DNA from: Commensalibacter papalotli (ex Servin-Garciduenas et al. 2014)
Lineage (GTDB): Bacteria; Pseudomonadota; Alphaproteobacteria; Acetobacterales; Acetobacteraceae
Length of the DNA: 64,000 nucleotides
Reading direction: 5' to 3'
NCBI RefSeq assembly: GCF_000527695.1
Contig: NZ_ATSX01000001.1
Location: 930,001-994,000 of the forward strand
In this document: positions 2,536 to 24,984 of the stretch, piece after piece
Layout of the letters: each line of letters opens with the position of its first letter
Position numbering within the stretch: position 1 is the stretch's first letter
Translations under genes and position numbers: made by a program
The notes under the pieces: generated by a model
Told to the model about the DNA's origin: nothing
Seen by the model: only the letters and a program-made list of their open reading frames with translations
The model's database searches: none

Positions 2536-4218
2536 TTAATTTAAAGAAATCAAACGAGTGTCAGATAAACGCCATACTTTATCAAGCTTTTCCACGCCCG
2601 TAAGGCGATGAGCAATCAAAATAATAGTTCGATTAGAGGCAACCTGATTTAAAATATTAAAAAATTCAGCCTCTGTATCTGCATCAAGTCCTGTTGTGGG
2701 CTCATCAAGTAACAGAATCGGTGCCTTCGATAGTAAAGTTCTGGCCAACGCAATACGACGCCCCTGCCCTCCAGAAACCTTTATACCACCTTCACCCAAC
2801 CAAGTATCCAATCCATCAGGCATAGCTTTAACAACATCAGCAACCGCAGCCTCGGACAAAGCCTGCCATAACTCATCATCAGTTGCCTGAGGATGGCTGA
2901 GTAATAAATTTTGACGAATCGTATCATCAAATAAATGCGTATTTTGTGAAAGCCAAGCAATTTTTGTGCGTACAGAATCCTCGCTTATAAGGGCAATATC
3001 TTTCCCCCCTAGGGTAATATTACCTTCTTGAGGTACGATGACCTTTAACAACAATGCTGCTAATGTCGATTTACCCGCACCTGAAGGGCCGATAATAGCC
3101 ACTCTTTGTCCTTGAAGGATTGTAAGGTTTAAATCACGATATACAAAAGGTTGATTCTTATCCCACTGAAATCCTAAATGATTAAACTGAATATCTGTTT
3201 GCTCAGGAGCTTGCTCTGTCCCTTTGGGAATATTATCAACATGATCTTGATTAACGCCAACTACACGCGTTGCAGCATTAATAATTTGACCCGTTAATCC
3301 ACCAGCTCGGGTTAAAGGAATCACGACTTCAAAAGCAGTAATAACTAAAAATAAACAAACAACAATATGAGCTGCACCTATTCCGTGAAAGCCAATATTC
3401 AAAGCTGCCGCTAAAACAAGTAAAACAGCTATTTGACTTAATACAAAAGAGATAAAACTCATCAAAGCTATTTTCTTAGCCTGATGAAATTGCTTATAAA
3501 ATAGTACCTTTTCTCTATCTTCTAATAAATCCTCAATACGGCTTTCAGCACCAAAGGCACGAATTTCCCTGAGACCGTGAATAAAATCCAAAACACTTAT
3601 TCTGAGCTGTGCGACAGAGTGCAGCAAGGTTTGTCCATGTTTTTTGGTAATTAATGCTGAAATAATAGGACAAACAAAGCCTGCCAGAAAATATAATCCA
3701 GCAACACATACAGCCAAAGGTATGTGAATAGACCCAATAATAACTAGTAAAACTATGAATGTTAATATTGACCCCGCAAAAGGTAACATTAACCGTAAAT
3801 ACAAACCATCTAACGTCTCAATATCAGAGACAAGACGGGACAAAACGTCTCCACTGTGACGAAAACCCAGGCCTGCTGCTGCCCCTTTGGATAGTTTAGA
3901 AAAAAACCAAACTCGAAGATCAGCAATCGCTTTGAACATTACATTATGAGTGTATAAACGCTCTACATAACGCATGCACAGGCGTCCGCCACCTAGCATT
4001 TTTAAGAACACAGAGCTGATAATCGCCATTCCCATCGCTGCAAATGCGATCTTACCTCCAGCAGAAGCCATTAAGGTCAAACCCAAAGCCAGTGCAATTA
4101 AAGAGAAGACAATCCCTATCATTAACGAAACGAAATGAGGTTTCCAAATTTTAAAAATTTGCTGAAAAGCTGCTTTGGGTGTTTCTTTTTGTGCCAAAGG
4201 ATCTTGAAATTCAGACAT
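2536..4218 (-). CDS. cydC: Heterodimeric ABC exporter CydC (cytochrome bd assembly)
   Basis: The protein has 560 residues. An N-terminal six-helix ABC exporter domain (about 25-310) is followed by an ATPase domain with Walker A GPSGAGKS at 377-384, signature VSGGQ near 482 and Walker B LLLDEPT near 503. CydDC is known to export cysteine/glutathione and to bind haem, and is needed to assemble the cytochrome bd quinol oxidase in the periplasm. The gene follows cydD with a one-base gap, so the pair is an operon with coupled translation. cydAB is not in this window. Confidence 0.93.
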   Translation of the reverse strand: MSEFQDPLAQKETPKAAFQQIFKIWKPHFVSLMIGIVFSLIALALGLTLMASAGGKIAFAAMGMAIISSVFLKMLGGGRLCMRYVERLYTHNVMFKAIADLRVWFFSKLSKGAAAGLGFRHSGDVLSRLVSDIETLDGLYLRLMLPFAGSILTFIVLLVIIGSIHIPLAVCVAGLYFLAGFVCPIISALITKKHGQTLLHSVAQLRISVLDFIHGLREIRAFGAESRIEDLLEDREKVLFYKQFHQAKKIALMSFISFVLSQIAVLLVLAAALNIGFHGIGAAHIVVCLFLVITAFEVVIPLTRAGGLTGQIINAATRVVGVNQDHVDNIPKGTEQAPEQTDIQFNHLGFQWDKNQPFVYRDLNLTILQGQRVAIIGPSGAGKSTLAALLLKVIVPQEGNITLGGKDIALISEDSVRTKIAWLSQNTHLFDDTIRQNLLLSHPQATDDELWQALSEAAVADVVKAMPDGLDTWLGEGGIKVSGGQGRRIALARTLLSKAPILLLDEPTTGLDADTEAEFFNILNQVASNRTIILIAHRLTGVEKLDKVWRLSDTRLISLN

Positions 4219-7652: not shown

Positions 7653-8975
7653 TTGTCTGGCAATATATTAGATAAACGCAGTAATCAAACCAGCCTCTTA
7701 CTATTTGTTTATATATTATTTCTTTTTATTCGTGCTCCTAATATCTTTACTCAAGGCCGCTTTTGGGCAGAAGAAGGATATATATTTTACGCTAATGCTT
7801 ATAATATGAGCCCCTTGAACGCTTTATTTGTGGTTTTTGGTGGATATATTAATCTAGGTGCCAGCGGCGCCACCTTAATTGCCAGATATTTATATATTCC
7901 TTTAGAATTCGCACCTTACTTTACAATCTTTGTTGGATTGGTTGTTCAAATCACTCCTATATATTTGTTATTAACAGCTAGAGATGAATGGCTATCCCCT
8001 TTTTACGTTCGATTACTGGCAACTTTATTGCTATTATTCGTTCCAGAATCCTCTGAAATATCTTTACAAAGCCTTCATCTTCAATTTCACCTTGCGTTGG
8101 CCTGTACAATCATAGCATTCTTAAAAACGGACATCAAAAATAAACGTTACTTTAAGCTTTTTTTACTTTTTTTTGCCCCTTTATGCGGCTTACTCCCTGT
8201 TGTTCTTATTCCAGTTTTTGTCGTAAAATCTTGGCTAGAAAAAGAAAATTTACGCAATGAACAAACTATTGCACTTGTATTAGGTAGCTCAATTCAACTT
8301 TCCTTTTACTTATTTAACTTAGTACATAAAATCGATATTGATAACTTTGCAATCGTACGTCAACGCCATTTTTCTTATAATGATTTTTGTAGTGTTCTAT
8401 ATGTTAGAGATATAATCTTTCCATTTTTAGGGCATCGTTATCACGTGTCTATAGGAATTATGGCCAATATATTTCATAAAGTTGAGGCTCATCAGATTTC
8501 AATAAAAGCCTGTTTAATTTCAAGTTTTTTTATTATTTTTATCTCCAGTATTTTCATCAAATATTCCAAAACACGCAAAGGATTACTTTTTTTTATCACA
8601 GCTATACTGATGGTTTGTATTTCCATTTATGGTGTTGTTGGTGGCACAATTCAATTAGTTAATCCTTATTTTACAGAACGCTATGCATTTCTCAGCCAAG
8701 CTTTATTTGCTCTAATGCTTCTTTATTTTTCTGTAACATTACCCAGAGCAGGAAAAATTGTAGCTAATGCTACTATTATATGGGTGCTTATCGTTGGTTC
8801 TTTTAATTTTTTTCAACTGCTTCCTGAAGCTAAAGATGGCGCTGGACATGTTTGGAGGCAAGAGTTAGAAAAATGGAGAAATGATCCTGAATATCACCCT
8901 AAAATCTGGAGTAGTGGTTGGTATATGGTTATACCTAAACAACTATCTACACACACGGCACCAAAAAATAATTAG
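7653..8975 (+). CDS. Putative GT-C-type polytopic membrane protein, tandem paralogue 1
   Basis: The 440-residue protein has about ten hydrophobic segments and is not recognised as a named family. A TTG is the only usable start after an in-frame stop at 7638. After the first helix comes RFWAEEG at 36-42; paired acidic residues in the first extracytoplasmic loop are a hallmark of GT-C glycosyltransferases that use polyprenyl-phosphate sugars. Other shared blocks are GGYINLGASGATLIARY, LLTARDEWL, an LLLLFVPES..EISLQSLH segment, and ERYAFLSQ near residue 345. It is the first of three adjacent homologues. The GT-C call is inference from motif and neighbours. Confidence 0.75.
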   Translation: MSGNILDKRSNQTSLLLFVYILFLFIRAPNIFTQGRFWAEEGYIFYANAYNMSPLNALFVVFGGYINLGASGATLIARYLYIPLEFAPYFTIFVGLVVQITPIYLLLTARDEWLSPFYVRLLATLLLLFVPESSEISLQSLHLQFHLALACTIIAFLKTDIKNKRYFKLFLLFFAPLCGLLPVVLIPVFVVKSWLEKENLRNEQTIALVLGSSIQLSFYLFNLVHKIDIDNFAIVRQRHFSYNDFCSVLYVRDIIFPFLGHRYHVSIGIMANIFHKVEAHQISIKACLISSFFIIFISSIFIKYSKTRKGLLFFITAILMVCISIYGVVGGTIQLVNPYFTERYAFLSQALFALMLLYFSVTLPRAGKIVANATIIWVLIVGSFNFFQLLPEAKDGAGHVWRQELEKWRNDPEYHPKIWSSGWYMVIPKQLSTHTAPKNN

Positions 8976-8983
8976 ACATTCTG

Positions 8984-10240
8984 ATGAAGATAACTATTCA
9001 AAATTATTATGACAAAAAAAAATATCAAACTTTTTTCCTATTATTAGTAATAGCCTGTATCCATATAACGCGCTCACCAGAAGTTATCATTGAAAGTCGT
9101 TTTTGGGCAGAGGAAGGCGGATTTTTTTTAAATGCTTGGCTAAGCAATCCTATAAAATCGCTATTTTTCTCTTATGGTGGTTATCTAAATCTTCCTGTTA
9201 ATGGAGCAACACTTCTTGCCAAATGGTGTGTACCTTTAAAATACGCGCCTTATGTCACTATGATAATAGGCCTATTATTTCAACTTTTACCAACTTTTCT
9301 GATTTTAACCGCCAAAGATAAATGGCTGAGTTCTTTTAAAATCCGTTTGTTAGCCGCTTTATTACTTCTTTTCGTTCCTGAATCCCTGGAAATTTCATTA
9401 CAAAGTTTACATATTCAATTCCAGTTAACTTTAGCAACTGCAATTATTTTAATACTAGATACCCAGCCAACACATCAAAGATGGTTTAAATTAAGTATTC
9501 TATTTTTAACCGCTCTTTCTGGTGTAATAAGCATTATTTTAATTCCTCTATATTTATGTCGCTGCCTTATTGATAAAGACCGTCCTAGAATAGAACAATT
9601 CATAACATTGCTTGTTGGTAATATCATTCAATTTTCTTTTTTTTATACCTCTTTTAATCAGCGCCAATATCATACGTCCTTTACAGATTTTCTGAGTATT
9701 TTCTTTGCTAAAGATATATATCTTCCGTTATTTGGTAATAATTCTTTATCAAATCCTTATCTATTATATTTACAATCATTAGTTAAAAATCAGCAACTAC
9801 CTATATTTGCCTGTAGTGTAAGTATATTTGTTTTGCTGCTCCTAATATATTGTTTTTATAATTATCCGAGAACAAGGCTTGCTGGCTACTTATTAATTAG
9901 CGCTTTATTGAACCTTGCACTTTCCACTTTTGGAGCAATCGGTCCAAGTTACTGGTTTTTTGAACCTTATTTTAATCAACGTTATGCTTTTATAAACCAA
10001 TCATTAATGTGTCTATTATTGGTTTATTTTATTTATTCTCTACCTAAATTGGGGAAATATTTTTGTATTACTTTAAGTATTTGGTTATTAATTGCCAATA
10101 CTTATAATTATTATCATTTTGTCTCGCATTCTTATGGTGTCCCCCCGTGGAGACAACAGATAAAATTAATAAAACAAAATCCCAATATTAATATTGCAAT
10201 ATGGCCCAAAGGGTGGTTTATAAAAATACACTCTGACTGA
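8984..10240 (+). CDS. Putative GT-C-type polytopic membrane protein, tandem paralogue 2
   Basis: The protein has 418 residues and starts eight bases after paralogue 1. It shares RFWAEEG (39-45), GGYLNLPVNGATLLAKW, LLTAKDKWLSSF, FVPES..EISLQSLHIQFQLTLA, NQRYAFINQSL and a C-terminal W..QQIKLIKQNP then IWPKGW. All hydrophobic segments fall at equivalent places, so it is intact and not a decayed copy. Base composition is AT-rich like its neighbours. Its role is inferred as transfer of a polyprenyl-linked sugar to a surface glycan; the acceptor is unknown. Confidence 0.75.
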   Translation: MKITIQNYYDKKKYQTFFLLLVIACIHITRSPEVIIESRFWAEEGGFFLNAWLSNPIKSLFFSYGGYLNLPVNGATLLAKWCVPLKYAPYVTMIIGLLFQLLPTFLILTAKDKWLSSFKIRLLAALLLLFVPESLEISLQSLHIQFQLTLATAIILILDTQPTHQRWFKLSILFLTALSGVISIILIPLYLCRCLIDKDRPRIEQFITLLVGNIIQFSFFYTSFNQRQYHTSFTDFLSIFFAKDIYLPLFGNNSLSNPYLLYLQSLVKNQQLPIFACSVSIFVLLLLIYCFYNYPRTRLAGYLLISALLNLALSTFGAIGPSYWFFEPYFNQRYAFINQSLMCLLLVYFIYSLPKLGKYFCITLSIWLLIANTYNYYHFVSHSYGVPPWRQQIKLIKQNPNINIAIWPKGWFIKIHSD

Positions 10241-10275
10241 AATTATATTCATTAAACATATTCAAAGCTTTAAAT

Positions 10276-11541
10276 ATGCCATCATTCAAACGTAACCGCT
10301 CTATCCAAACCATTGCGCTATTGTTCTTGTTTGTAATCATAATGTGCTTACGTGCACCAGACGTGTTTTTATATGGGCGCTTTTGGGCAGAAGAAGGGTA
10401 TATTTTCTTTTACAATGCTTGGACTATGTCTCCTCTACAAGCATTGTTTCATCCTTTTGCTGGCTATTTAAACCTTTCTACAAATGGGGTCACCCTGATT
10501 GCAAGATGGTGTATTCCTTTTGAGTATGCACCTTATTTGACAACAATTATTGGAATTTTATTTCAACTGTTACCTTTGTTTTTACTCTTAACTGCAAAAG
10601 ATGAATGGCTTGTCTCTTTTCAAGTAAGATTATTTTTAACTTTATTGCTGCTCTTTGTTCCTGAAACAGCAGAGACATCTTTACATAGTTTACATATTCA
10701 GTTTCAATTAACTTTGGCTTGTGGTGTTATCCTCATTCTTCAACCCAGTTACTCTTATCAAAGATGGTTAAAAATAATCATTTTACTGCTAGCAGGGCTT
10801 TCTGGTTTAATGGTTTTTGCTCTTTTACCTATTTATGCGATACGTTGCTGGATCGATAAAAATAAACTTCGGATTGAACAATTTTCAATTTTATTACTCA
10901 GTTGTTTAATACAGTATTTTTTCTTTTATGAGAAAGTAGACGGTCGCCTTCATGCGTTCTTTGTAAGTGATTTTTTGAATATTTTCTTTATTCATGAACT
11001 ATATATTCCCTTTTTAGGTAATAATTCCTACACAGTGCCATATATGGCGTTTTTACATGATCATATGCATGATCTATATGCATTCGTATTCCCTTGTGTC
11101 ATTGTGGCTTTATTCATCACAGGTATAATTTACATTTTTTATAAAAACGCAACGACAAGACCCGCTATATTCCTTTTCCTAGCGGCTTTAACACTTTTTA
11201 GCATTTCTATTATCGGATCAATCGGGGATAGAAATAGCTTTTTAATTCCATTCGCTAATCAACGTTACGTATTTATTAGCCAATCTTTATTATGTATTAT
11301 GCTTGTTTACATAACATATCATTTACCTAACGTAAGACGAAAAATTGGCAAAATCATTATTTGTTGGTTGATTTTCGTTGGTGGAATTCATTTTTTTACA
11401 CAACCAGCATTTATTGTCAAAGCACCTAAAAATTACTTATCTTGGCAACAGCAAGTAGCATTATGGAAAAAAGATCCAGATTACACTTTCCAAATATGGC
11501 CTTCTAATTGGGTCCAAATAAAACTTCCTGTAAAAAAATAA
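10276..11541 (+). CDS. Putative GT-C-type polytopic membrane protein, tandem paralogue 3
   Basis: The protein has 421 residues with RFWAEEG at 35-41, GGYLNLSTNGVTLIARW, LLTAKDEWLVSF, LLFVPETAETSLHSLHIQF, NQRYVFISQSLL and a C-terminal WQQQVALWKKDP then IWPSNW. It is colinear with the two preceding genes along its full length, so the set arose by tandem duplication. The divergent stretches lie in the middle loops, at about residues 215-300, where acceptor or donor choice might differ. Fifteen bases separate it from the acyltransferase downstream. Confidence 0.75.
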   Translation: MPSFKRNRSIQTIALLFLFVIIMCLRAPDVFLYGRFWAEEGYIFFYNAWTMSPLQALFHPFAGYLNLSTNGVTLIARWCIPFEYAPYLTTIIGILFQLLPLFLLLTAKDEWLVSFQVRLFLTLLLLFVPETAETSLHSLHIQFQLTLACGVILILQPSYSYQRWLKIIILLLAGLSGLMVFALLPIYAIRCWIDKNKLRIEQFSILLLSCLIQYFFFYEKVDGRLHAFFVSDFLNIFFIHELYIPFLGNNSYTVPYMAFLHDHMHDLYAFVFPCVIVALFITGIIYIFYKNATTRPAIFLFLAALTLFSISIIGSIGDRNSFLIPFANQRYVFISQSLLCIMLVYITYHLPNVRRKIGKIIICWLIFVGGIHFFTQPAFIVKAPKNYLSWQQQVALWKKDPDYTFQIWPSNWVQIKLPVKK

Positions 11542-16706: not shown

Positions 16707-17705
16707 TCAAAAACTCATCTTCTTCGGGCTTAACAACCCTGATGCTTGCATCCGCTCTCTTGACTCTTTCACACTATTAATCACTGCCAAGGCAGCCTCC
16801 AACGCATTTCGTCCAGCCACCGCATCGACAATCACAGGTGCGCCATCGAGGCAAGACGCAGCAAAGGCGGCGTGTTCTTGTTCTAAATTATCGTGATCTT
16901 TCCATTTAACTGCTTCGCGTCTGAACCCATTCGTGCCAGGCAGAGGCAAGCCTTTTTCTCGACCAATCATGACCAATTGTTTTTCCATAAAGTCCGCTGA
17001 TAAATAGCCTTCTTCAGAGAAAATTCTCATTTTACGTTCAGTTTTTAAGGAAATCCGACTGGCCGCAATTGTGGCAACGCACCCATTGACAAAAGTCACC
17101 CTTGCATTTGCGATATCTTCGAATTCGGAAGTTACCGCAGCCCCCAATGCATCGACTTTATCTATCGGAGAATTTACAATTGCCATCACCAAATCCAAAT
17201 CATGAATCATCAAATCCAAAACCACAGAAACATCTACTCCACGAGGCTTAAACGGTGCAATACGGGTTGTTTCAATATAAAGAGGACGTTTGATCCGTTC
17301 ACTAATCGCTTTTTGTTCAGCGGAATAACGCAATAAATGTCCAACTTGTAAAACAATACCCGCCTTTTCAGAAAGCTCAATTAAGTGATCAGCCTGTTCT
17401 AGGGTGGAAGCAATGGGTTTTTCAATTAAAACATGTTTGCCTGCCTGAATAGCTTGAACTGCAAGTTTATAATGCTCCTCGGCAGGAGCCGCAATAATCA
17501 GAGCCTCGCATTGATCCAACAGCTTATCCAAAGGCATGTAAGGTGCACCACCTGCCTCTTTGCCTACTCGTTCAGCATTTTCAACAACAGGGTCATAAAC
17601 ACCAACCAACGCTTCACGTTGAGAGGCGGCCGTTTTTAATGCATGAAACCGTCCAAAATATCCTGCGCCAACAAGCCCTACTCGTAATATTGTTTTTTCT
17701 TTCAT
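16707..17705 (-). CDS. Gfo/Idh/MocA family NAD(P)-dependent oxidoreductase
   Basis: The 332-residue enzyme has an N-terminal Rossmann fold (VGLVGAGYFGRFHA near residue 10), the EKPIAST motif near 96 with the catalytic Lys, and a C-terminal alpha/beta domain containing VVLDLMIHDLDLV near 165, where the His is expected to act in catalysis. The family oxidises or reduces sugars and nucleotide sugars. The motif spacing resembles GnnA-type UDP-GlcNAc 3-dehydrogenases, which supply 3-amino sugar for lipid A, but no GnnB aminotransferase lies next door, so the substrate is open. It stands alone on the minus strand, convergent with arsH. Confidence 0.85.
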   Translation of the reverse strand: MKEKTILRVGLVGAGYFGRFHALKTAASQREALVGVYDPVVENAERVGKEAGGAPYMPLDKLLDQCEALIIAAPAEEHYKLAVQAIQAGKHVLIEKPIASTLEQADHLIELSEKAGIVLQVGHLLRYSAEQKAISERIKRPLYIETTRIAPFKPRGVDVSVVLDLMIHDLDLVMAIVNSPIDKVDALGAAVTSEFEDIANARVTFVNGCVATIAASRISLKTERKMRIFSEEGYLSADFMEKQLVMIGREKGLPLPGTNGFRREAVKWKDHDNLEQEHAAFAASCLDGAPVIVDAVAGRNALEAALAVINSVKESRERMQASGLLSPKKMSF

Positions 17706-17755
17706 GCTGCACTCTTTTAGTTTAAAAATGTTTCTTTGTTGAAGTTAATAGCTAT

Positions 17756-18838
17756 ATGAAAATAATGATGACATACCTCAAGATGAATAAAAATATCTTT
17801 CTTTATTGTGTAAGTTTTTTTCTCTTTATTACAAACCTTGGTTATACGAAATCAGTTCAAGCAAAACCAAATTGCATTCATAGCGTTCTCTCTGATCTAG
17901 CTTCTTATCCAAACAATCTTATAAATATTTTGACTGCTAAAAAATATTTCATCATCGAAGCCAATATGGACAAAGTTATTGATTATAAATTATCAAAAAT
18001 TTCTCTACAGCTCCAAAATGAAATCGATAAGCGGTCTATTCATAATATAGAAATCGCAAAAAAAAATAATGATTTAATTATTTTTTACAAAAACGCTCTA
18101 GATTCCACAAATATATTAAACATCATACAAATATTACCTAAAAATATACTTAATAATGCAGAGGTAAAAAATGAATTAATTGGTAACCAACTGCAAATGA
18201 CTTTAACAATTCCCAAACAAAGCATTGAAAAAGAATTATATTTAAAGTCTAAATGGATTATTCAAGACGTTTTGATGATCAATAATATACACGCAATAAT
18301 GTTGCCTATGGCGCTTAATAAATTCATAATTATACCAATAGAAGATAATAAAAATAATCTATCAAACCTTTTTCAAAATGTTGGAAATATAACATTCCAT
18401 CTTGTTAATGAGAATTCTATTTCTCATAACACTTCCTCTATTGATACAATCATTCTACCTTTTTTATTTTCACAACACACCTCATTGCCAATCTATGAAC
18501 AACAATTAATGAGCGGTCAGTCTATTATCAACGCAAACTCAAAATTCGACCCGTATTTAAAAAATTATTCCGTAAATATAAATTTTGATAATTCTAATAA
18601 AGAACAACTTTATAATATTACACGCCAAAATGTAGATAAAATTATAGCAACCGTTATGAACAATGAAATTATATTTGCATCACATATCAGAGCACCTATA
18701 TACGGTGGAAGGGTAATGATTGAAGGGAATTTTTCACAACAGCAAGCTAATGCAATCGCTAATTTACTTTCTTTGAACTATATTCCAATCACTTTCAAAG
18801 TCACTGAAACTGAGAGGTTAACTATTTTTCAAAAATAA
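17756..18838 (+). CDS. Secreted SecD periplasmic-domain homologue lacking the translocon membrane domain
   Basis: The 360-residue protein matches no named family I know. A signal peptide spans about residues 10-36 (hydrophobic core 14-29, likely cleavage VQA|KP), and there are no other membrane helices. Residues 210-353 align by eye without a gap to SecD 201-344 encoded 4 kb away, with about 44 identities in 144 positions. These include ITFHL, YSVNINFD, NITRQN, the NNEIIFASHIR segment and FKVTETE. The protein ends just before the first SecD core helix. The conserved GLDLRGG motif after SecD helix 1 is not present. It would be a soluble periplasmic P1-domain protein. The start among closely spaced ATGs (17756, 17765, 17768, 17783) is uncertain because none has a strong ribosome-binding site. 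Confidence 0.8.
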   Translation: MKIMMTYLKMNKNIFLYCVSFFLFITNLGYTKSVQAKPNCIHSVLSDLASYPNNLINILTAKKYFIIEANMDKVIDYKLSKISLQLQNEIDKRSIHNIEIAKKNNDLIIFYKNALDSTNILNIIQILPKNILNNAEVKNELIGNQLQMTLTIPKQSIEKELYLKSKWIIQDVLMINNIHAIMLPMALNKFIIIPIEDNKNNLSNLFQNVGNITFHLVNENSISHNTSSIDTIILPFLFSQHTSLPIYEQQLMSGQSIINANSKFDPYLKNYSVNINFDNSNKEQLYNITRQNVDKIIATVMNNEIIFASHIRAPIYGGRVMIEGNFSQQQANAIANLLSLNYIPITFKVTETERLTIFQK

Positions 18839-18919
18839 ATTGTAAGCTCGTCTTATATTTTTATTAACTCGAAATTGATATTTATATATATTCTTGCATT
18901 TTTACTTAATACAACGAAT

Positions 18920-18946
18920 AAAAGCCTGCTTTACAACAAGCTTTTT
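18920..18946 (+). terminator. Probable intrinsic terminator after the SecD-like gene
   Basis: AAAAGCCTG (18920-18928) pairs with CAAGCTTTT (18937-18945) with one mismatch and an 8-base loop. A short T run ends the 3' side. It lies in the gap before the convergent Hint-protein gene. Confidence 0.6.
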
Positions 18947-18976
18947 ATCAAGAATTAAATCAACCGAATAAATCTC

Positions 18977-21900
18977 TTAACTTGCAAGAATAATCTCATC
19001 TTCTTGAGCAATCTCTAGATAAGGGCCACCAGCCAATATCTGCATTGAAATATACAATACTGAGTTATCTGATAAGTTCTTACTATTAATTGGTAAGAAG
19101 GCCTTTCCGTTTGTCCAACGCCCTAATTGTTCTTGTCTTGCATGCCAACCCAATAACTCCTCTTGCTCTTTATGAGCTTCTATGAACTCTAGTGCACTAT
19201 CAGCATAAATTTTTATTTCATTAATCAATACACCCAGGAAATGACGGTTATCTATGAAAGGACCAATCACATCACAAAGGCGGTTTCTTCTTGAGTTAAT
19301 CCAAACAAATTGAACTGTTGATGGAAGCATAAAAGTTACATAACCATTGAAAACGCGTTTTTGACGAATGATTACACCTTGATCAGTAACCAAATAAATA
19401 TCTGGATCTTCTATTAGTTTGTAATTACGTCCTTGATACTCTGTTTTTACGATAGAGTTGCGTTCTTTGAGTTCATTATATAATGGTTCTACCACACCTC
19501 TATCAACAACAAGAGGTGCCGCAGCGTTCTTCGTCCAATCTTTTGCAGAGCATAAAGAAGTTTCTATTACTTTATGATGGTGATTAAAAGCATGACGATT
19601 ACCTGTATCTAAATAACTCTCAGTAAGCATACCATCTGCAATAATTACAGAATGTTCCTCTAATTCAACGTGATAATATTCATACGAAGTTATAGAGTAA
19701 TCATAAAAAATTGTTGATCCATTGACCAACATACGAACTGGTATGAATTTATCTTCAAAGAATAAACAATGTTCAGCGGTAATTAATAAATCTTTGTAAG
19801 GAACATTTTCAGCAATAGCCCCCTTTAATATACGTACAGGATACCCTGCCATATCATCAGGAAGATGTTTATTAACGCGACAATATTTTTGCCCAACCCA
19901 CGTAACTACACGTTCAATATATTTCTTTTTAGCCCAATCATAAGTCGTTACTAAGTCACCCGATTGCAAAGCTTCAATATTTTTAACTCCTGTTTCTGTT
20001 TGAATTTCTGTTCCCGACAAGAAACAAACTGTTAGAACTAACCCTAATCCTCCATCACTTGGTGTCTGAATTGAATATCCTGTTTGCTTAATACCAACAA
20101 TATTCAACGTAAGGGAAAAGCCTGTATCCATTGTAATGGTAATATGATCATTATCTGGGAATGTTACACCAGTTAATTTTCCAAATTCGATATCTTCATA
20201 TTCTAATAAAATACTATCTGAATGATCTGCATCTGTTCCAGAGAATCCTTGAATTTGAGTGGTAACACTTGCATCATTCCCTTCCCAGTTAATTAATGGT
20301 GGTTCACCAATAATCGTTAATCCACCATTTGTATCACCTACTAGATTAATAACCCCACCATTAGATGTTGTTATCAACGCACTGCCACCTGGATTTAATG
20401 TAACCTCGCCTTTAATATTTGTACCCATAGATACATCTAACCAACCACCATTATTAATAGTAATATTGCCTAAATTTGAACCATCACCAGCATAAATAGC
20501 ACCATTAGTCACAGTCGTATTATTTGCTGTCGCACCATCACCAACATTTTGATATCCACCACTAATAAATGTATTACTTGCAATACCTCCTGATAATATT
20601 GTTTGACTTGTTCGCCCTGTACCCTGCCCAGAACCAAGAATACTCGTATTATATACAATGGCACCAGAAGCAACTGTTTGGGAGCCACCACTAACAATAT
20701 TTGTATAATCAACAGTAGCACCAAATAAAACAGATTGAACTGCTCCAAGTGAAACCGTTGTATAGCTAATATTAGCACCAGAACTTACAAACTGTTTACC
20801 CCCATTAATAAGAGTAGTATTCTCAACAATAGCACCAGATGAAATAAATTGACTACCTAAATTTCTTACAACAGTCCTATCCACAAAAGCACCGGATGAT
20901 ACTACCTGAGATCCAACCCATATAATGGTTCCATAAGCGCTTCCTCCACCTAAAACAAATTGTGAGGCACCGTCTCCTGAATAGGAAAAACTATTACCAG
21001 ATGAAACAGAAAAATCTGCATCAAGAATTGTTCCACTCGCAACAGCACCAGATGAAATAACCTGTGTTATTCCATGCATTGTATTATTGTAAACTGCTCC
21101 ACCTGATGAAATTATTTGACTTCCAGAACCACTAACAACTGCGCCACTCAAATAAACACCTGACATAATTACTTGAGAGGCATTCGTGTATAAATGCGTA
21201 ATACCGCTGATTGCCCCACCATAAATAATTTGTGCGCCACTATTTACACTTGTGTCATAAACAGTTCCAGCTGAAACAATTTGAGATCCAATGTTAATAT
21301 TAGTGTTAGAAACAATTCCTCCAGAAATATACTGATTGCCATTGTTTATTCTTGTATTAGTAACACTTCCACCTGAAATAGTTTGATAACCACTATTAAT
21401 TTGTGTATCAACAACAATTGTGCTTTTAAGGTACCCATCAAGTTTTCCATTAGAAATAATTTGATATCCAGTATTAATACTAGTATTACTAACAACTCCA
21501 GCATGAATTATTTGAAATCCATTATCAATAAAATTATTAGTATAATTAGCTCCACCAGCTTCTTGAGATCCACTAATAAGTGTAGTATTACTAACTACTC
21601 CTGCTCCCCAATCTTTTTGCTTCCCATTACCAATTTTGGTATAAAGAACATTACCTCCCCAAATATCTTGCTCACCATTATCAATAGTAGTATTAGATAC
21701 ATATGCAAGACCACCAATCACTTGTATACCACTACCAATACTAGTATTTATAGCACTTCCTAGTATTCTTTGATATCCACTATTCATACTAGTGTTAGCT
21801 ACGAAAGCGTCTGTTGCAGAAACAACTTGATATCCGTATCCATCATAAAAAAAATTTCCGTCAGCACTACCACCTGAAGAGATAACTTGAGATCCATTAT

Positions 21901-22090
21901 AAAAACTTGTATTAATGGCTCTCCCTCCTGAAACGTACTGTGTTCCACTACTAATCGTTGTATCGCTAGCAATTTGTCCTTGATCAACATACTGATTACC
22001 TGTAATCACAGTAGCTCTGTTAAGATAAATGTTACCATTATCACTATTGGTGTTAATTATATTTCCAGAAGAAATTATCTTATCATTCAC
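18977..22090 (-). CDS. AIDA-type repeat protein with C-terminal Hint (hedgehog/intein) domain
   Basis: I place the start at the GTG at 22090, preceded by AAGGA at an 8-base spacing, giving about 1037 residues; a TTG at 22147 would add 19. Residues of about 25-545 are some 25 copies of a roughly 20-residue repeat of the type ISSGG.V.NT.I..G.Q, as in AIDA-I/autotransporter passenger beta-solenoids. A linker with a beta-rich segment follows. The Hint_2 domain begins with CFLSGTEIQTETG at Cys689 and includes GDLVTTYD, TAEH (771-774) and ESYLDTGN near 823. About 200 residues of unknown fold end the protein. No signal peptide or beta-barrel is visible, so the export route is unclear. Hint domains can self-cleave at their first Cys. 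Identity of the domains is clear; the function is not. Confidence 0.85.
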   Translation of the reverse strand: MNDKIISSGNIINTNSDNGNIYLNRATVITGNQYVDQGQIASDTTISSGTQYVSGGRAINTSFYNGSQVISSGGSADGNFFYDGYGYQVVSATDAFVANTSMNSGYQRILGSAINTSIGSGIQVIGGLAYVSNTTIDNGEQDIWGGNVLYTKIGNGKQKDWGAGVVSNTTLISGSQEAGGANYTNNFIDNGFQIIHAGVVSNTSINTGYQIISNGKLDGYLKSTIVVDTQINSGYQTISGGSVTNTRINNGNQYISGGIVSNTNINIGSQIVSAGTVYDTSVNSGAQIIYGGAISGITHLYTNASQVIMSGVYLSGAVVSGSGSQIISSGGAVYNNTMHGITQVISSGAVASGTILDADFSVSSGNSFSYSGDGASQFVLGGGSAYGTIIWVGSQVVSSGAFVDRTVVRNLGSQFISSGAIVENTTLINGGKQFVSSGANISYTTVSLGAVQSVLFGATVDYTNIVSGGSQTVASGAIVYNTSILGSGQGTGRTSQTILSGGIASNTFISGGYQNVGDGATANNTTVTNGAIYAGDGSNLGNITINNGGWLDVSMGTNIKGEVTLNPGGSALITTSNGGVINLVGDTNGGLTIIGEPPLINWEGNDASVTTQIQGFSGTDADHSDSILLEYEDIEFGKLTGVTFPDNDHITITMDTGFSLTLNIVGIKQTGYSIQTPSDGGLGLVLTVCFLSGTEIQTETGVKNIEALQSGDLVTTYDWAKKKYIERVVTWVGQKYCRVNKHLPDDMAGYPVRILKGAIAENVPYKDLLITAEHCLFFEDKFIPVRMLVNGSTIFYDYSITSYEYYHVELEEHSVIIADGMLTESYLDTGNRHAFNHHHKVIETSLCSAKDWTKNAAAPLVVDRGVVEPLYNELKERNSIVKTEYQGRNYKLIEDPDIYLVTDQGVIIRQKRVFNGYVTFMLPSTVQFVWINSRRNRLCDVIGPFIDNRHFLGVLINEIKIYADSALEFIEAHKEQEELLGWHARQEQLGRWTNGKAFLPINSKNLSDNSVLYISMQILAGGPYLEIAQEDEIILAS

Positions 22091-22147
22091 AGTTTTATTC
22101 CTTGACTTGTGTTTATTGCCATAAATCACAACGGCGAATATCGGCAA
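18977..22147 (-). repeat. Degenerate ~60-bp tandem coding repeats (AIDA-like)
   Basis: Within this gene, roughly 20390-22020 is built from degenerate units of about 60 bases encoding the 20-residue beta-solenoid repeat. Units differ at most third positions, so the array looks old and is not made of recent identical copies. Spacing is slightly irregular, and some units carry longer inserts. Confidence 0.65.
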
Positions 22148-22475: not shown

Positions 22476-24035
22476 ATGATGTATTACAGCCGCAAGAAAC
22501 TAGCCCTGGTTATTCTTACCTGTTTTATTGGGCTATTATTATGTTTACCGAATTTTATGTCCTCTCCCTCGCCCAAAATCCCTTGGCGCCAAGTGCATCT
22601 TGGATTGGATTTGCGAGGTGGATCTTATTTATTAATGCAGATTGATTTAAATACAATTACAAAAAATCGTCTGCAAACTCTCAGCGATAATATCCGCCAA
22701 ACCCTGATTTCTAAAAATCTGGGTTATAAAGATATTCATATCTCTGATAAAACTCGTAGTGTAAACTTTACCCTACGCAGCCCTTCTGAAAAAGATGCCG
22801 TATTACAAGCTTTGCGCGCTATGCCCAAAGCTGTTGTTAATGAGTTTTCTGTTAATGACGGTGCTAATGATCAGATTTCATTAACGCTTTCAGAAACAGC
22901 CATGCAAAAGCGTGGTGCTGAAGCCATTGCACAATCTATCGAAATTATCAGAAAACGTATTGATGCCACGGGGGCCGTTGATCCATCCATTACACGTCAA
23001 GGTGAAGACCGTATTGTTGTGCAATTACCAGGCGTTGATGATCCTGAACGTATTAAGAAACTGCTGGGAACAACAGCAAAAATGACATTCCATCTATTGG
23101 ATGAAAGTGCGACAAACCCAGATTTTCCTCCTCCTGGGGTTACTTTTATGCCAATGACGGAAGATCCTTCTAGAAAACTACCGATACGTGATCATGTAGA
23201 GGTCGATGGTTCAGAATTAACCAATGCCAGTGCTGGACTAAATCAAGAAAGTGGTGAATATGCTGTCAATTTTCAATTTGATACAGCTGGTGCCCAAGCA
23301 TTTGCAAATGTAACCAGAGCAAACAAAGATAAACCTTTTGCTATTGTTTTAGATAATCAGGTTATTACTGCTCCAGTCATCAGAGGTATTATTCCTAATG
23401 GTAGAGGGGAAATTACAGGTGGCTTTACTGCACAAAAAGCAACAGATCTTGCGTTAATGTTACGCTCTGGTGCATTGCCTGCTCCTTTAAAAGTCGTTGA
23501 AGAACGTACGATTGGGGCTTCACTTGGTGAAGATGCTATTCGTGCAGGGGCTATCAGCTTAGTTGTTGGTTTCGCTTTTGTTATCGTCTTTATGTTAGTA
23601 TTTTATGGTCGTTTTGGTTTTTATGCCGATGTTGCCCTATTTGCAAACTTGATATTAATGATGGCAATCTTATCCTTATTCGAAGCCACGCTGACTTTGC
23701 CTGGTATGGCAGGTATGTTATTAACGTTGGGTATGGCCGTGGATGCAAATATCTTGATTAATGAGCGTATCCGTGAAGAAGTTCGTAATGGACGTACCCC
23801 TTTAAATGCGCTTCAAACAGGATTTGATAGAGCCCTCAGCACTATTGTTGACAGTAACGTTACAGCATTTTTATCTCATGTCATGCTTTTTGTGTTTGGC
23901 ACAGGACCAGTACGTGGGTTTGCCTTAACCATTACCATTGGTATTGTTACCACGATCTTTACGACTTTATGTTTATCTTGGATGTTGATTATCCGCTGGT
24001 ATGCGGTTACTCGTCCCAAAGAGCTACCAATTTGA
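22476..24035 (+). CDS. secD: Protein translocase subunit SecD
   Basis: The 519-residue inner-membrane protein works with SecF and the proton gradient to pull preproteins through SecYEG. Helix 1 lies at about 8-27, followed by GLDLRGG at 43-49, the large periplasmic P1 domain to about 345, and then five helices. In the core, GMAVDANILINERIREE carries the conserved Asp for proton coupling. Its length is in the short range for SecD. secF starts 10 bases after the stop. The usual upstream yajC is absent; instead the divergent Hint gene lies upstream, and a SecD-like paralogue lies beyond it. Confidence 0.97.
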   Translation: MMYYSRKKLALVILTCFIGLLLCLPNFMSSPSPKIPWRQVHLGLDLRGGSYLLMQIDLNTITKNRLQTLSDNIRQTLISKNLGYKDIHISDKTRSVNFTLRSPSEKDAVLQALRAMPKAVVNEFSVNDGANDQISLTLSETAMQKRGAEAIAQSIEIIRKRIDATGAVDPSITRQGEDRIVVQLPGVDDPERIKKLLGTTAKMTFHLLDESATNPDFPPPGVTFMPMTEDPSRKLPIRDHVEVDGSELTNASAGLNQESGEYAVNFQFDTAGAQAFANVTRANKDKPFAIVLDNQVITAPVIRGIIPNGRGEITGGFTAQKATDLALMLRSGALPAPLKVVEERTIGASLGEDAIRAGAISLVVGFAFVIVFMLVFYGRFGFYADVALFANLILMMAILSLFEATLTLPGMAGMLLTLGMAVDANILINERIREEVRNGRTPLNALQTGFDRALSTIVDSNVTAFLSHVMLFVFGTGPVRGFALTITIGIVTTIFTTLCLSWMLIIRWYAVTRPKELPI

Positions 24036-24045
24036 AAGAAAGAAC

Positions 24046-24984
24046 ATGCTAGGCCGTCCTTTATTACATTTAGTTCCTCATGGCACTAAAATTCACTTTA
24101 TGCGTGGACGCTTTATTGGGCTGATTACTTCTGCAGTTCTGTCTATTGCGTCTCTTATCTTATTTTTCCACCCAGGGTTAAATCTGGGGTTGGATTTCCG
24201 TGGCGGGGTGGTTGTCGAAGCCCAGACCCAAGGTCCTGCTGATTTTTCTAAAATTAGAATGGAGCTTAATCAAGCTCATATTTCAACGGCTGGATTACAA
24301 CAATTTGGTGCAAAAAATAATGTGTTAATTCGTTTGGATGCTCCCAAAGAAAATAATGCCGAAGCAACCCAAACACTGATTAACCAAGTTAAACAGGCTG
24401 TTACTTCAGCGCAAGATGGTACGAAAATTGTCAGAGCAGACGCAGTTGGTGCCTCTGTGTCTTCCGAATTGTTTTATCATGGTTTGCTAGCTCTTGGATT
24501 TAGTTTGCTGATGATCATGATTTATATTTGGTTTAGATTTGAGTGGGAGTTCGCGGTCAGTGCAATTATCACATTGCTTCTTGATTTAACCAAAGCAATC
24601 GGTTTCCTAGTCATTACTCGCTTTGAGTTTGATTTGGTTATGGTTGCTGCACTTTTAACTATTTTAGGCTATTCAACGAATGATAAAGTGGTTGTTTATG
24701 ACCGTGTAAGAGAGAATTTACGCAAATATCATTCCATGCCAATTCGTGAACTTATAGATATGTCGATTAATGAAACACTAAGCAGAACCCTTGCTACTTC
24801 TGCAACTGTTTTTCTAGCTGCATTGCCTTTGGCACTATTTGGAGGCGCATCCTTATCAGGTTTTGCTTGGGTTATGTTATTTGGTATTGTCGTTGGGACA
24901 TCTTCTTCGATCTTTATTGCGGCACCTTTATTACTCTTTATGGAAGAAGGAAGCCTTAAAAGAAAAGCAAAAAAGGCTTCTTAA
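24046..24984 (+). CDS. secF: Protein translocase subunit SecF
   Basis: The 312-residue protein starts at the ATG at 24046, with GAAAGAAAG just upstream; an earlier frame start at 24001 lies inside secD. Helix 1 is followed by LGLDFRGGVVVEAQ, a short P1 domain, and five helices. The family motif LTILGYSTNDKVVVYDRVREN is present near residue 205, with the conserved D/R pair. It forms the SecDF complex with the preceding gene. A strong hairpin follows, ending the operon. Confidence 0.96.
   Translation: MLGRPLLHLVPHGTKIHFMRGRFIGLITSAVLSIASLILFFHPGLNLGLDFRGGVVVEAQTQGPADFSKIRMELNQAHISTAGLQQFGAKNNVLIRLDAPKENNAEATQTLINQVKQAVTSAQDGTKIVRADAVGASVSSELFYHGLLALGFSLLMIMIYIWFRFEWEFAVSAIITLLLDLTKAIGFLVITRFEFDLVMVAALLTILGYSTNDKVVVYDRVRENLRKYHSMPIRELIDMSINETLSRTLATSATVFLAALPLALFGGASLSGFAWVMLFGIVVGTSSSIFIAAPLLLFMEEGSLKRKAKKAS

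Follow-up and report, generated by a model that had tools for sequence, protein, structure and literature searches.

Why would a bacterium encode the P1 domain of SecD a second time, in an apparently secreted protein and apart from the membrane core of SecD? The question is raised by a gene of Commensalibacter papalotli found within a window of 64,000 nucleotides (the whole stretch of DNA analysed; contig NZ_ATSX01000001.1, positions 930,001 to 994,000). This gene, called here the free P1 gene, lies 3.6 kb from secD, its presumed parent, among the following features (window coordinates and strand).

16707..17705, minus: gfo, gene of a Gfo/Idh/MocA oxidoreductase, which adjoins secD in sister species
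17739..17805, no strand assigned: block common to three sister species in the gfo–secD gap (blastn), either the 5′ part of the free P1 gene or the promoter of gfo
17756..18838, plus: free SecD-P1 paralogue gene, 360 amino acids, with a possible alternative start at 17765
17756..17863, plus: apparent signal peptide, residues 1–36 (by eye), with a possible cleavage after VQA
17930..18331, plus: P1 base-like part, residues 59–192, eroded and with GLDLRGG replaced (BLASTP alignment)
18482..18775, plus: P1 head (PF22599), residues 243–340 (Pfam)
18977..22147, minus: repeat/Hint protein gene, separating the free P1 gene from secD (context)
22476..24035, plus: secD, presumed parent gene
24001..24984, plus: secF

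A SecD P1 domain apart from the membrane core

The frame 17756–18838 (GC 27%) runs over 360 codons with no internal stop, against at most 130 stop-free codons when its bases were shuffled 2000 times. A frameshift joining the gene to membrane helices, considered in the preliminary description of this DNA, did not appear. That description had aligned residues 210–353 with SecD residues 201–344 by hand, at an offset of nine residues and with about 44 identities; the ungapped count is exactly 44 of 144, far beyond chance in 10,000 shuffles (mean 8.1, maximum 19 identities), and the runner-up among 350 ungapped offsets has 17. In BLASTP, the alignment extends from residue 59 to 354 (SecD 46–344; 69 of 306 identities, E 3e-27), so that the base of P1 is also represented. 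The Pfam profile SecDF_P1_head (PF22599) matches residues 243–340 with 78.3 bits (cut-off 27; E 5e-22), and a search of PDB sequences returns five entries with an E of at most 1, each of them SecD or SecDF. The overall amino-acid identity to SecD is only about 22–26%, and the score against the SecD equivalog TIGR01129 (77.2 bits) falls below the curated cut-off of 244.4.

With the P1 domain of SecD (base PF21760, head PF22599), the protein thus shares the head match, the alignment over base and head, and the end before the core helices. It differs from SecD in the rest. Despite the BLASTP alignment of the base, SecD_1st (PF21760) is without a Pfam match up to E 1, and the same holds for the GG motif (Sec_GG, PF07549), with LTAKKYF aligned at the position of the SecD GLDLRGG, and for the six-helix core (SecD_SecF_C, PF02355). 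The loss of GLDLRGG and the stop before the core, both already noticed by hand, are thereby borne out. Beyond residue 40, the highest Kyte–Doolittle mean over 19 residues is 1.45, hence no membrane helix is evident. The protein therefore belongs with free P1 proteins having base and head (the base by alignment alone) and a frame that ends before the core.

In place of the first SecD helix, residues 1–36 show, by eye, the marks of a signal peptide: a lysine-bearing start, a hydrophobic run and VQA ahead of K37. The reading as a secretion duplicate stands in both its parts, a secD copy without the membrane-coupling part and, from this apparent signal peptide, a periplasmic location. The idea of a replaced helix is to be refined. 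An ATGATG at 17765 is kept in the related blocks of three sister species (see below), in which the ATG at 17756 is not kept, and it may be the true start; the protein would then begin with MMTY, similar to the MMYY of SecD itself, and the signal peptide could have arisen by remodelling of the first SecD helix, not as a foreign piece. In BLASTP, the signal region of two counterparts from another genus (g129, below) aligns with the N-terminal end of the host SecDF, which fits such a remodelling.

The two parts of P1 have not been kept alike. Among columns nearly fixed in the genus, 36 of 88 are retained in the head vs. 18 of 103 in the base (p 0.0003). Within the head, widely conserved columns are kept at 22 of 43 vs. 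10 of 31 for the others, a difference that is not significant (p 0.08); within the base, the corresponding counts (4 of 38 vs. 10 of 51) indicate no excess. The GC content at codon positions 2 and 3 (0.236 and 0.247) is near that of the flanking intergenic DNA (0.260). An AlphaFold2 model of the mature protein, made with four SecD rows, has a pLDDT of 57.7 (about 70–87 for mature residues 30–130, below 50 for 135–219 and about 45–66 in the head), so that the early base scores above the head; a model of the head with five relatives has 52.7 (about 58–77 for residues 67–170). In Foldseek against the PDB, SecD or SecDF occupy ranks 1–10 and 1–9, with TM-scores of at most 0.5 for these low-confidence models. 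A fold unlike P1 did not appear in this structural check; the models agree with a P1 fold without proving one, since they are weak and built on SecD alignments.

The locus and its history in Commensalibacter

Among nine Commensalibacter genomes, the gene is intact in this one and absent from all eight sisters. PF22599 matches occur in 240 of 249 genomes of Acetobacteraceae, with a second match in two only, the present genome and another (G201) where a single secD is split over two contig ends and no free P1 is involved. The orthologues that the preliminary description proposed to look for in the family were thus not found among these 249 genomes.

In seven sisters (G001–G004 and G006–G008), gfo and secD are divergent neighbours, 240–528 bp apart. 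The corresponding interval of the window contains the free P1 gene and the repeat/Hint gene. The block at 17739–17805 recurs next to gfo in G002, G004 and G007 over 67, 44 and 54 aligned positions (79.5–81.5% identity, blastn), with none of 500 shuffles as good in each of the three. Residues 2–45 match G002 in frame (E 1e-6, vs. 0.017 for the best of 20 shuffled queries). Synonymous sites of the secD P1 region differ at 61% (G004) and 69% (G007), which means that the block has been kept under constraint. It is the stump of a lost P1 gene or else the gfo promoter, and we lean slightly to the stump. The matches are spread across codon positions and show no coding signature; a promoter scan of 17600–19000 gives 11 sites for 9.3 expected, none of them on the minus strand inside the stump. 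No mid-gap remnants of a P1 gene were detected in the gfo–secD gaps of the sisters, by a weak test with lenient gap scoring.

In C. intestini A911 (G005), Hint genes are present on the same flank of secD, and the assembly, with contigs that break there, yielded no free P1 gene. Its gfo is on another contig (L056, at the end of C22), with a match that starts at residue 5 and an upstream sequence unlike that of the sisters; the sequence past gfo is similar to the DNA behind the P1 stop codon in the window (score 50, 0 of 500 shuffles). With the caveat of the contig break, a deletion that removed the P1 gene together with the start of gfo would fit. The flank of secD in this species (L050:2-4625, at the start of C20) contains two tandem matches to the Hint protein, the longer one split near 3144, perhaps by a frameshift.

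As to the parent, the eight Commensalibacter SecDs compared rank 1–7 and 9 of 31 when the window P1 protein is searched by BLASTP. (One locus, L004, is a near copy of L003 and was left out of this ranking, of the SecD trees, of the AU tests and of the column counts.) In a tree of 20 rows, the protein falls in one set with seven of the eight Commensalibacter SecDs (98/98), a ninth member of the genus group joining at 91/92. With these closest relatives, the gene is most likely a duplicate of secD made within Commensalibacter, as far as sequence can tell. A tree from six proteins, in which W is the window genome, is (G021,(G001,((G003,(G006,G008)),(G007,((G004,G002),(G005,W)))))), with two inner branches not starred.

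As to its place in the genus, an early duplication with later losses and a transfer within the genus fit about equally. That the gene came from another Commensalibacter lineage, and not from a duplication of this lineage's own secD, we regard as unlikely, with evidence on both sides. Among the genomes of the genus, only that of the window has the gene; the nearest SecDs in the trees are those of G003 and G006 (a set of three at 100/98 in one tree and 74/99 in that of 20 rows), and AU tests speak weakly against grouping the window P1 protein with the SecD clade of its own lineage (p 0.023; p 0.049 for the window SecD alone), as well as against a genus clade that excludes it (p 0.043). Against a transfer, the gene lies beside secD and the three sisters share the 5′ block at the same place; moreover, the protein's own branch carries 5.5 to 10 changes per column in two trees, a saturation that makes its placement inside the genus unreliable, and an older duplication, before the lineages split, fits equally.

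Free P1 proteins in other Proteobacteria

The preliminary description knew of no free SecD P1-domain protein. Such proteins do exist in other Proteobacteria, two alphaproteobacterial genera among them (13 of 51 genomes of g129 and 21 of 50 of g126, both counted at an E limit of 1e-40). Over the phylum, PF22599 matches 297 of 299 genomes, and 46 besides the window's have more than one match. These 46 were sorted as follows. Two frames of at least 554 amino acids occur in 21 (classed by frame length alone). A free P1 with base and head is present in seven (G301, G320, G373, G402, G408, G529 and G557), in G301 as the end of a longer open frame, and a free head only in nine (G319, G323, G327, G395, G429, G473, G496, G513 and G515). 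In two (G420 and G422), the head ends a frame of 507–521 amino acids; two others (G362 and G371) have fragments at contig ends. The last five are without a class, G348, G359, G407 and G497 having no SecD-profile match and G478 being left out; three of these score under the Pfam threshold.

Short P1-head proteins (L077, L078, L083 and L079) are found away from a full SecD in the stretch examined, with, by eye, lipoprotein-like starts (LLAACAG, LLGACAG, LLAGCAS). In L097:605-2167 and L098:1738-3258, the P1-head-like stretch is C-terminal in otherwise different frames of 507–521 amino acids.

In g129, all 13 genomes have the free P1 frame just upstream of secDF, with yajC on its other side, and a DUF815 gene upstream (tblastn; L100 and L102–L113; Pfam names of the neighbours checked in one genome). 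Like the window protein, these have an N-terminal signal or anchor, base and head, and a stop before the core, next to secDF; they differ in being directly adjacent to secDF, in their 50–62% identity to their own SecDF and, for the one tested, in matching SecD_1st, which the window protein does not. In G560, G567 and G583 (L110, L112 and L113), a second copy of the final 34 to 45 YajC residues stands right before secDF, as left by a tandem duplication that took in the end of yajC and the start of secD. The free P1 of these three genomes keeps the GG motif and may be membrane-anchored. In g126, none of the free P1 genes is listed near SecD. The five translated have, like the window protein, an apparent signal peptide, base and head, and no core; unlike it, they are 40–44% identical to the SecDs of the genus, keep GG in part and lie away from secD.

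For the free P1 proteins, dN/dS is 0.21–0.34 in five of five pairs, with 0.05–0.21 for the P1 of SecD in four of those pairs; dN is above that of SecD P1 in three of the four and lower in G529–G557 (0.067 vs. 0.099). From these ratios, the counterparts tested are under purifying selection. By tree position, the two g129 proteins included group with the SecDFs of their own genomes (97/95), and that of the window with Commensalibacter, which suggests separate origins; in AU tests, neither a single clade of all free P1 proteins (p 0.074) nor one of g126 with g129 (p 0.22) is rejected.

Searches with a reach limited to close relatives found no free P1 relative in named genomes or viral contigs, and a plasmid search with the window protein found none either. 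Of 22 plasmid records with a match, the five inspected are each annotated with a full-length secD. Three rhizobial plasmids (L085:3932-6448, L086:3428-5941 and L087:3425-5938) are annotated with a full-length secD, two of them with genes for cation/H+ antiporters close by. Among phages, one record alone gave a match; it is an unverified scaffold with a SecD-like frame of 515 amino acids and not a free P1.

Secreted SecD-P1 proteins are thus a recurrent class. It is apparently undescribed; no title or abstract start on a free SecD-P1 protein was found among the open-access papers searched. The class, rather than the gene of the window, is the stronger finding; the latter is a divergent member of uncertain health, possibly a decaying relict.

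Possible roles and competing explanations

For the SecD head, a substrate-binding pocket is described, together with a proposal that it pulls substrates, driven by cation influx (PMC11470409); the head is reported as critical by mutagenesis (PMC9508474), and a hydrophobic head pocket is marked in the figure legend of a review (PMC8669966). From the observed homology, the truncation, the retention of head over base, the nearest relatives within the genus and the selection on counterparts, we tentatively prefer, at somewhat below even chances, a soluble secreted P1 that binds polypeptides beside SecDF. A partial duplication of secD within Commensalibacter would have produced its gene; the signal peptide would bring the protein to the periplasm, where, with no six-helix core, it would be uncoupled from the proton gradient. 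Since it would keep the binding part and lose the drive, its head may capture polypeptides, either unfolded or just emerging, close to the Sec exit and so act as a holdase or a passive ratchet.

The main rival is an old secD duplicate without function, the frame of which is still open in one species, and we give it a substantial if lesser place. Intactness in a single genome of the genus, the stump-like 5′ blocks in G002, G004 and G007, the base without its GG motif and with so few of its conserved columns, and a base composition near intergenic all agree with decay, and the extreme divergence together with the absence from eight sister genomes suggests that this copy may be on its way out. 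What speaks for constraint, at least until recently, is the length of the frame relative to its shuffles and a head kept above the base after a divergence that saturates the branch. A free P1 could also rival the P1 of SecD for substrates or for contacts with YidC or SecY and so damp SecDF. A retained head without drive and the position of the g129 counterparts between yajC and secDF suit such a decoy or inhibitor, which we nevertheless find improbable; helper and inhibitor cannot be separated from sequence alone. A dedicated chaperone of the neighbouring repeat/Hint protein, close to the partnership first imagined from the adjacency of the two genes, is very improbable: the genes are convergent and form no operon, the g129 counterparts adjoin yajC and secDF instead, and Hint genes also accompany secD in C. 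intestini A911, where no free P1 was found (its contigs break there), which weakens the partnership. The repeat/Hint gene is probably not part of the P1 system. The secretory protein encoded upstream of the Vibrio secD2–secF2 pair offers a further likeness (PMC11470409). That protein, VemP, monitors secretion by means of an arrest peptide and shares an operon with secD2F2, whereas the window protein is a P1 homologue split from secD. The VemP-like identity was set aside, because an opposed gene of 3.2 kb lies between the frame and secD.

For the class as a whole, a bolder reading, which we consider rather doubtful, is that secreted SecD-P1 proteins would be an overlooked Sec accessory: a free polypeptide-binding clutch, derived by repeated partial tandem duplication of secD, that would aid or tune late translocation without the proton gradient, highly divergent in Commensalibacter and, in another genus, retained between yajC and secDF. 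Whether P1 acts as a substrate binder by itself or depends on the proton-driven core bears on the mechanism of late translocation. Natural detached P1 proteins, under selection beside yajC and secDF, would allow such a test with existing parts, the window gene being an extreme and possibly dying example. Elsewhere in the window (7653–11541), three consecutive open reading frames of 440, 418 and 421 amino acids are alike by eye and probably encode tandemly duplicated membrane proteins.
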